A stretch of DNA of 64,000 bases, taken from assembly GCF_018623055.1 (NCBI RefSeq), contig NZ_CP076019.1:744001-808000 (forward strand), given 5' to 3'. The DNA comes from Halorubrum sp. 2020YC2 (GTDB lineage Archaea > Halobacteriota > Halobacteria > Halobacteriales > Haloferacaceae). Each line of letters starts with the position of its first letter. The first letter of the stretch is position 1. The position numbers were made by a program, and so were the translations under genes. The notes beneath the pieces were generated by a model. It made no database searches. It was given only the letters and a program-made list of their open reading frames with translations, and was not told the origin of the DNA. Shown one piece after another: positions 3,930 to 6,379 of this stretch.

Positions 3930-4208
3930 ATGACCGACACGGAAGCCGAGTCGGGGAACGGCATCGAGGCACGGTACGAGGAGACCGACGGCGAGCGCCT
4001 GCTCACCTTCTCCCGAGACGGCCGCGAGGCGACGGTCGCACAGAACGCCGAGGGGTACGCCATGCTGAAGGTCCGAGCCGGTCCCGACGGAGACGAGCTA
4101 GAGCGGTACTACGGGTTCGACATGGCGCTCGACCACGCCGCTGAGCTGCTCGGCGTCGCGGTCCCCGACCTCCCGGTGCCGGACGCCGCCGCCGACATGG
4201 GGATGTAG
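3930..4208 (+). CDS. small haloarchaeal protein of unknown function
   Basis: 92 residues starting MTDTEAESGNGIEARYEE. It has a strand-rich core (GERLLTFSRDGREATVAQNAEGYAMLKVRAG) and a C-terminal helix (GFDMALDHAAELLGV), with no cysteine and no membrane segment. It resembles the haloarchaeal DUF7111 group (number from memory). It diverges from menA-menC across 128 nt and stands alone. Confidence 0.7.
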   Translation: MTDTEAESGNGIEARYEETDGERLLTFSRDGREATVAQNAEGYAMLKVRAGPDGDELERYYGFDMALDHAAELLGVAVPDLPVPDAAADMGM

Positions 4209-4407
4209 CCGCGCCGTCGGCGCCCCGCCGGCGATCAACCAGCAACATCGTCCGCTACCCGGAACGGGAGCCGAACCGCTTCGGCGGCGAGGGAACGCGA
4301 CTCGTGAGCGCACGACCGGGCGTTAACCGTCGTGAGGGGCCGATCGAAGCCCGTGTGAACGACGCTTACTGTCGAAAATAAATAACTATCAAACATCACA
4401 ATCGGAA

Positions 4408-4416
4408 TTAAATATT
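4408..4416 (+). promoter_or_regulatory. AT-rich promoter of the ssu deletion remnant
   Basis: TTAAATATT lies inside an unusually AT-rich stretch (about 4370-4436) and predicts transcription starting near 4438. It probably served the former transporter operon. The rest of 4209-4464 holds no gene I can support. Confidence 0.45.
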
Positions 4417-4464
4417 CTCAGTAGCCATATTTGCTTATGAGCGGCGCCGGTAGGGGGAACCACG

Positions 4465-4887
4465 ATGGAACGACGACAATTCCTGCGCGGTACCGGTGCG
4501 GCGATCGGCGGCTCGCCGCTCGCCGGCTGCGCGGGGGGCGGCGGATCGGGAACGGTGACCGTCGACTACGCGTACTACAACCCGGTCAGCCTCGTGTTGC
4601 GCGAGAAGGGCTGGCTCGACGAGGCGTTCTCGGCGCTCGACCGGCTGACGAAGGCCGACCAGCAGGACCACCTGCTCGACGTGTGGGAGGAGCGCGGGAC
4701 GACGGTCGTCCTCGTCACCCACGACGTCGAGGAGGCCGTCTACCTCGCGGACCGGGTCGTCGTCCTCGGCGGCCAGCCCGGCACGGTGGAGTCGGTCGTC
4801 GACGTGGACATCGAGCGCCCCCGCGAGCGGGCGGACGCCGACTTGGTCGCGCTCCGGCGGGAGGTGACCGGCGCGCTGGGCCGGTAG
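4465..4887 (+). pseudogene. fusion remnant: start of SsuA/TauA-type binding protein joined to end of SsuB/TauB-type ATPase
   Basis: 140 codons, in frame but chimeric. Residues 1 to about 53 are the start of a Tat lipoprotein (ERRQFLRGTG, lipobox LAGC) followed by VTVDYAYYNPVSLVLREKGW, as in sulfonate/nitrate/taurine binding proteins. From LDEAFSALDRLTKADQQD onward the sequence is the last third of the partner ABC ATPase: D-loop SALD, H-loop VLVTHDVEEAVYLADRVVVL and a normal C-terminus. Walker A, Q-loop, the ABC signature, the permease and most of the binding protein are absent. The joint LDEAF/LDEPF is shared by both families, so recombination at a short repeat probably removed over 2 kb. No function is expected. 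Confidence 0.85.
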
Positions 4888-5157: not shown

Positions 5158-6379
5158 ATGACAGACATCACGGAGGCTTCGTCGGACACCCCGGCGGATC
5201 GAGTTCTTCCAGGGCACGATAGCTTCTAACGTCGAAATCGGTCCTGTACGGATCTTCGACACGACCCTGCGAGACGGAGAACAGTCACCACGCACGTCGT
5301 TCAGCTACGAGGAGAAACGCCGCATAGCGGCGACGCTGGACGACATGAACACCCACGTCATCGAGGCGGGGTTCCCGGTCAACTCGGACGCGGAGTTCGA
5401 GGCCGTCAGCGACATCGCCGCCGCGACGGACACCACCGTCTGCGGGCTGGCGCGGGTCGTCGAGGGCGACATCGACGCCGCCATCGACTCCGGCGTCGAG
5501 ATGGTCCACGTGTTCGTCTCCACCAGCGACGTTCAGCTGGAGGACTCGATGCACGCGACCCGCGAGGAGGCGAAGGAACGCGCGGTCGACGCCGTCGAGC
5601 AGGTGAAAGACGCCGGCGTCGAGTGTATGTTCTCCCCGATGGACGCCACCCGGACGGACCCGGACTACCTGGTGGACATCGTCGAGGCCGTCTCCGAAGC
5701 GGGCACCGACTGGATCAACATCCCGGACACCTGCGGCGTCGGGATGCCGACCAGCTTCGGACAGACGGTGAACGCCGTCGTCGAGGCGACCGACGCCCGC
5801 GTCGACGTCCACACCCACGACGACTTCGGCATGGCCGCGGCCAACGCGGTCACCGGCTTCGAGAACGGCGCGGAGCAGGCGCAGGTGTCGGTCAACGGGA
5901 TCGGCGAGCGCGCCGGCAACGCCGCCTACGAGGAGGTCGTCATGGCCGTCGAGTCGGTGTACGGCGTCGACACCGGTATCGACACGACCCAGATCACCAA
6001 GCTGGCCCGGATCGTCGAGGAGGCCTCGGACATCCCGGTGCCGGCGAACAAGCCCGTCACCGGGCGGAACGCGTTCGCCCACGAGTCGGGCATCCACGCC
6101 GCCGGCGTCATCGAGAACAGCGACACGTTCGAGACCGGCGTGATGACCCCGGAGATGGTGGGCGCCGAGCGCGAGTTCGTGCTGGGCAAACACACGGGCA
6201 CCCACAGCGTGCGCAAGCACCTGGTGGAGGCCGGCTTCGACCCGACGGACAGCGAGGTCCGGTCGATTACGAAGCGGGTCAAGGAGTACGGCTCCGGCAA
6301 GCGGCAGGTGACCGCTGGCGACGTCGAGCGGTTCGCCGAGGAGGCGGACGTCACGCGGGAGGAGGAGGTCCGGGTCTGA
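5158..6379 (+). pseudogene. leuA: 2-isopropylmalate/citramalate synthase, frameshifted near the N-terminus
   Basis: The main frame encodes the DRE-TIM metallolyase domain (FDTTLRDGEQSPRTSF; HTHDDFGMAAANA; GIGERAGNAAYEE; HESGIHAAGV). Its catalytic motif at about 5257 lies upstream of the first in-frame ATG (5345), and no start codon exists between the in-frame TGA (5159-5161) and that motif except rare CTGs. The ATG at 5158, correctly spaced from a TATA-like TTAAGTA (5128-5134), is in another frame that stops at 5227-5229. Removing one C from the CCCC run at 5189-5192 joins MTDITEASSDT to RRIEFFQGTI, the normal family start. It is therefore a real mutation or a sequencing indel. The leucine and isoleucine (citramalate) roles cannot be separated by eye. 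Confidence 0.85.

Follow-up and report, generated by a model that had tools for sequence, protein, structure and literature searches.

The locus between a DUF7111 gene and leuA in Halorubrum sp. 2020YC2 holds a short open reading frame that begins like the binding protein of an ABC importer and ends like its ATPase, and the question it raises is whether this frame encodes a working small protein or is what remains of a lost operon. We analysed it in the window, meaning the whole stretch of 64,000 nucleotides, and compared it with 51 other Halorubrum genomes. Our reading, to which we give a probability of about 0.93, is that the frame is the scar of a recent repeat-mediated deletion, which left a non-functional remnant of ssuA-ssuC-ssuB.

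A chimera of two transporter proteins

The reading frame and its parts are arranged as follows.

4465..4887, + strand: in-frame chimeric open reading frame with an ATG start, 140 amino acids, the probable remnant of the deleted ssuA-ssuC-ssuB operon
4465..4613, + strand: ssuA-derived part, through GW, comprising a lipoprotein signal of Tat type (RRQFLRG..LAGC) and the beginning of the binding protein
4614..4633, + strand: joint, the single copy left of an imperfect 20-base direct repeat, of which relatives have one copy in ssuA and one in ssuB
4634..4887, + strand: ssuB-derived part, beginning at the D-loop (SALD) and running to the ATPase C terminus

The first-pass annotation had read the protein as an SsuA-like Tat lipoprotein up to GW and an SsuB-like ATPase from SALD, and this is borne out by 28 of the 51 other Halorubrum genomes, in which the stretch 1-56 of the protein aligns with the N terminus of one gene (71-95% identity) and the stretch from about 51 to 140 with the C terminus of another (69-94% identity), the two matches lying in separate open frames about 2.0-2.3 kb apart. 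The switch from SsuA to SsuB falls at GW/LDEAF/SALD. The ssuB part has neither what we take to be Walker A nor the presumed signature, and the presumed Walker B is gone apart from the joint itself; the motif set of an SsuB ABC ATPase (Walker A, signature, Walker B) is incomplete in the chimera, which has only the stretch from the presumed D-loop onward. Pfam ABC_tran gave no match in the chimera, and the TAT_signal match reached 18.1 bits, under the Pfam cut-off of 22.7. SsuA_fam (TIGR01728) was absent among the best 25 of the 42 NCBIfam matches of the chimera, and those listed were all of ATPase type. The chimera is present once in its own genome.

The ssuA signal region of one relative (G022, L044 9075-9278) has an in-frame tandem duplication, in which GGSLLAGCAGN occurs twice, and the lipobox is therefore present twice.

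The intact operon in relatives

In all 28 carriers, ssuA, ssuC and ssuB were found side by side when the full proteins of one relative were used as queries, so that the two halves of the chimera belong, in 28 of the 51 other genomes, to separate genes around an intact permease. Three features of the window flank the chimera.

3930..4208, + strand: DUF7111 gene, which adjoins the operon on its left in relatives
4373..4450, + strand: block upstream of the former operon that is conserved in 16 relatives, probably its promoter and operator
5162..6379, + strand: leuA frame, undamaged, which adjoins the operon on its right in relatives

It had been proposed in the first-pass annotation that relatives would hold the intact operon between the DUF7111-like gene and leuA, and this is what was found in 15 of the 16 closest relatives, with DUF7111 directly to the left and leuA directly to the right; the contig of the sixteenth, G064, stops short of leuA. 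The same arrangement occurs in the more distant G009. In eight other carriers leuA adjoins the operon and DUF7111 is absent from the stretch fetched, and in G034, G071 and G075 neither gene lies within the stretch fetched around the operon. The comparisons of 16 sequences given below cover the 16 closest relatives and leave out the 12 more distant operon carriers. In all 16, the upstream block is strongly conserved and reads CATCATAG..GAATATTCTC..TAGCCATAT, and it is likely, judging from this pattern, to be the promoter and operator of the old operon.

We consider "sulfonate/nitrate-type" a fair label for the predicted substrate class of the parent importer, because in G017 the binding protein reaches 192.1 bits and passes the cut-off of 163.5 for NCBIfam SsuA_fam TIGR01728, the permease has SsuC as its best match and the ATPase matches NtrCD and SsuB (all these under the strict equivalog/subfamily cut-offs), Pfam finds NMT1/THI5-like, BPD_transp_1 and ABC_tran in the proteins of the operon, and the nearest solved structures are sulfonate- and nitrate-type binding proteins. 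Set against the SsuABC/TauABC/NrtABCD importers (TIGR01728, PRK11365, PRK11247, TIGR01184), the intact operon of the relatives has the three expected parts, whereas this genome retains just two, cut down to about 50 and about 90 residues. No SsuA_fam match over the cut-off was found anywhere in its own genome, where three weaker ones are present.

A paralogue that could compensate for the lost transporter was also considered, and no close one was found; the most similar ATPases share 57% and 55% identity, and the best-matching binding proteins lie far under the SsuA cut-off. Nothing on this operon was apparent in the portion of the literature on Halorubrum sulfonate ABC transporters that was covered.

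The start of leuA

The right neighbour has a peculiarity of its own. At window positions 5158-5345, leuA is without an in-frame ATG, GTG or TTG ahead of the catalytic DTTLRDGEQ motif, and a 23-codon open reading frame (MTDITEASSDTPADRVLPGHDSF) beginning at 5158 overlaps that of leuA in the +1 frame. Hardly any variation is seen in this stretch among the window and 35 other Halorubrum genomes, and all 18 genomes compared from other genera have a similar out-of-frame ATG reading frame (..RVLPGH.., RVLRGH.., RVLQGH.., RVLRRH..) overlapping the leuA frame; in some of those 18 an in-frame ATG, GTG or TTG is present at a greater distance upstream. The start problem of leuA2 (HVO_1510) has been published, and a non-standard start or leucine-tied ribosomal slippage is suggested in the part of that source consulted (PMC8305020). 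The breadth of the pattern supports a conserved mechanism, as far as comparison of genomes can indicate it, and this may perhaps be a +1 shift near GTT CTT CCA.

A direct repeat at the probable deletion joint

Against the 16 aligned relatives, 2,090-2,243 bases (about 2.1-2.2 kb) are missing at the locus. Each of these relatives holds the full stretch flanked by two direct copies of the repeat, and one copy is left exactly at the joint in the window. Short-repeat recombination, named in the first-pass annotation as the simplest cause, is upheld by this direct repeat of the predicted kind, the two copies of which are alike at 17 of 20 bases in five relatives, at 16 in five and at 15 in six. The accompanying claim that the joint motif LDEAF/LDEPF occurs in both parent proteins holds in part: LDEPF is the ssuB copy in 16 of 16 relatives, but LDEAF is never the ssuA copy, which reads LEEAF, LEAAF, LGEAF, LEETF or VEEAF (one joint codon in G033, seemingly a stop, is an aligner artefact and intact in the sequence). 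The window copy at 4614-4633 is itself a mosaic, its three diagnostic bases following ssuB, ssuA and ssuB in turn. One extra step is needed to account for it, a point change or patchy mismatch repair: either the aspartate codon was already in the parent ssuA, or the proline codon of the ATPase changed later, or mismatch repair proceeded piecemeal.

The strength of the repeat signal depends on which relative best represents the parent. We compared, in each relative, all 2,907,665 pairs of operon 20-mers that lie at least 300 bases apart, and pairs alike at 17 of 20 bases or better numbered 21 in G073, 15 in G065 and 10 in G074. The joint repeat is the only such pair spaced 1,900-2,500 bases in these three relatives, where it is better than chance; in G028 and G017, where its copies are 15/20 alike, 440 and 594 pairs are equal or better and it does not exceed chance. 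When direct repeats were ranked by score in the three relatives with 17/20, the joint repeat stood at 22, 35 and 22 among 146, 176 and 157, respectively.

From these observations the following course of events can be proposed. A forebear of this very strain presumably carried the same ssuA-ssuC-ssuB operon, encoding an aliphatic sulfonate/nitrate-type ABC importer, between DUF7111 and leuA. The deletion would have occurred at the imperfect 20-base direct repeat, one copy of which would have lain about 150 bases into ssuA and the other at the Walker B/D-loop region of ssuB, and the repeats may have annealed during break repair or misaligned by replication slippage. The event would have removed about 2.1-2.2 kb: ssuC would have gone altogether, together with most of ssuA and roughly two thirds of ssuB. 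The product is predicted to do nothing, having no substrate-binding domain, membrane part or ATP-binding site.

Repeat-mediated deletion is already published for haloarchaea (PMC3119063), and the chimera is a further case of this known process. Among the cases in Haloquadratum walsbyi covered by the consulted part of that paper, deletions occurred between short direct repeats, mostly of 4-20 bp, with deleted cores of 10 bp to 34 kb, and one repeat copy was left at the joint, with slight differences between copies in several cases (PMC3119063). The present locus resembles those deletions in its short direct repeats, its single copy at the joint and its slightly different copies; unlike in the H. 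walsbyi cases described there, the copies differ at 3-5 of 20 bases in relatives, and species rather than strains are compared, so the parent repeat is a reconstructed one. Microhomology-mediated end joining in Haloferax volcanii, as outlined in the consulted part of a review (PMC7776575), also proceeds by annealing of short matches near a break with deletion of the intervening DNA; the short matching stretches and the loss of the DNA between them are common to both, whereas our scar is known from its sequence, and slippage leaves the same scar.

The same operon was lost separately, by different deletions, in a second species. In G025 (79% complete), one piece of ssuC and one of ssuB lie between DUF7111 and leuA (L055 7112-7460), and their match to the relatives is broken at about 279-290, at 484-494 and from 619 onward of the aligned stretch; the first and clearest joint has 9 bases, GCGGCGTCG, common to both sides.

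Why the frame is intact

The intact frame had been described in the first-pass annotation as an unusually clean footprint, and this description does not hold, since it is the expected result in a GC-rich, codon-biased genome. When ssuA and ssuB of the 16 intact relatives were compared, 2,469 of the 2,525 20-mer pairs with at least 15 identities (98%) lay in the frame-preserving codon phase, as did all 159 pairs with at least 17; the pairs overlap and are not independent, and about one third would be expected in phase without codon bias. The same holds for four unrelated window genes, leuA and those which we take to be ilvB, ilvC and leuC, where 435 of the 449 pairs that share 16 or more bases (97%) are in phase. 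The frame thus survived the deletion because long imperfect matches between genes are here nearly always in codon phase, and with about 98% of repeats in phase an in-frame chimera is the expected outcome of such a deletion.

Selection on the remnant and alternative explanations

It might be argued that the chimera is a working small protein under selection, a Tat-exported lipoprotein tail or a regulator derived from the ATPase C terminus, and we consider this very improbable. The frame is open, with start, signal and stop intact, and much of the upstream block is still present. Selection was measured by pairwise dN/dS and by unique-column counts among living sequences, after removal of the 5 joint codons ahead of the dN/dS counts; the mean pairwise dN/dS of the remnant is 0.13, compared with 0.12-0.24 for the 16 intact relatives. 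At columns where the other 16 agree, the remnant has 4 silent changes and 1 amino-acid change of its own, and the other 16 together have 25 silent and 17 amino-acid unique changes (one of the 17 being an aligner artefact). A low dN/dS fails to separate recent loss from constraint, and a remnant that has hardly decayed is explained by a recent deletion, as it would be by constraint. Against a working protein, however, stand the loss of the ATP-binding motifs and of the binding domain and the nature of the single unique amino-acid change, which is Leu-to-Pro in the core of the signal. The upstream block at 4373-4450, moreover, has 4 unique changes at the 43 columns invariant in the 16 relatives, where none of those 16 has more than 2. 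These changes are a hint of lost function and are not claimed as proof of it, because unique changes are numerous in the leuA leader region too, 5 in this genome against at most 3 in others (G064 being left out of the leuA counts). Conservation of the same short chimera in relatives, the counter-case named in the first-pass annotation, was looked for and found in none of the 51 other Halorubrum genomes, which leaves the chimera in 1 of 52.

That the joint is seen in one genome only could also mean that the strain still has the whole operon, which the assembler collapsed at the repeat. This is just as improbable, since the assembly consists of a single contig of 3,063,515 bases and is 98.5% complete, a 20-base repeat alike at 15-17 of 20 positions is far too short and divergent for collapse, and the neighbouring genes are intact. 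Least probable of all, to a degree that we regard as negligible, is that the short frame is ancestral and the operon of the relatives arose by insertion. DUF7111 and leuA do lie close together without the operon in some other species, for example G026 and G001, but these empty sites match neither half at the thresholds used, and in 28 of 51 genomes the first half corresponds to the start of one full-length gene and the second to the end of another, the catalytic parts and the permease lying between them, as expected of a deletion rather than an insertion. In addition, the window's genome (G000) falls among the operon carriers in the tree. The tree built from the flanks (DUF7111 and leuA, with G064 left out because its contig ends before leuA) has weak support around this genome; with the remnant codons added, G073 is its sister with 94% bootstrap. 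The data fit a repeat-mediated deletion that is young relative to the species split.

Implications for haloarchaeal genomes

The locus offers a clean example of transporter loss in a haloarchaeon, at a place where the operon was lost independently in a second species. We tentatively suggest, as an idea with somewhat less than even chances, that in GC-rich genomes with a strong codon-phase bias, where imperfect repeats between same-strand genes nearly always share their codon phase, repeat-mediated deletions give in-frame fusions by default, and that this scar may be one instance of fusion proteins being supplied steadily in haloarchaea. In GC-rich genomes, an intact frame across a deletion joint says little in favour of function, a point that helps in annotating odd short fusion proteins.
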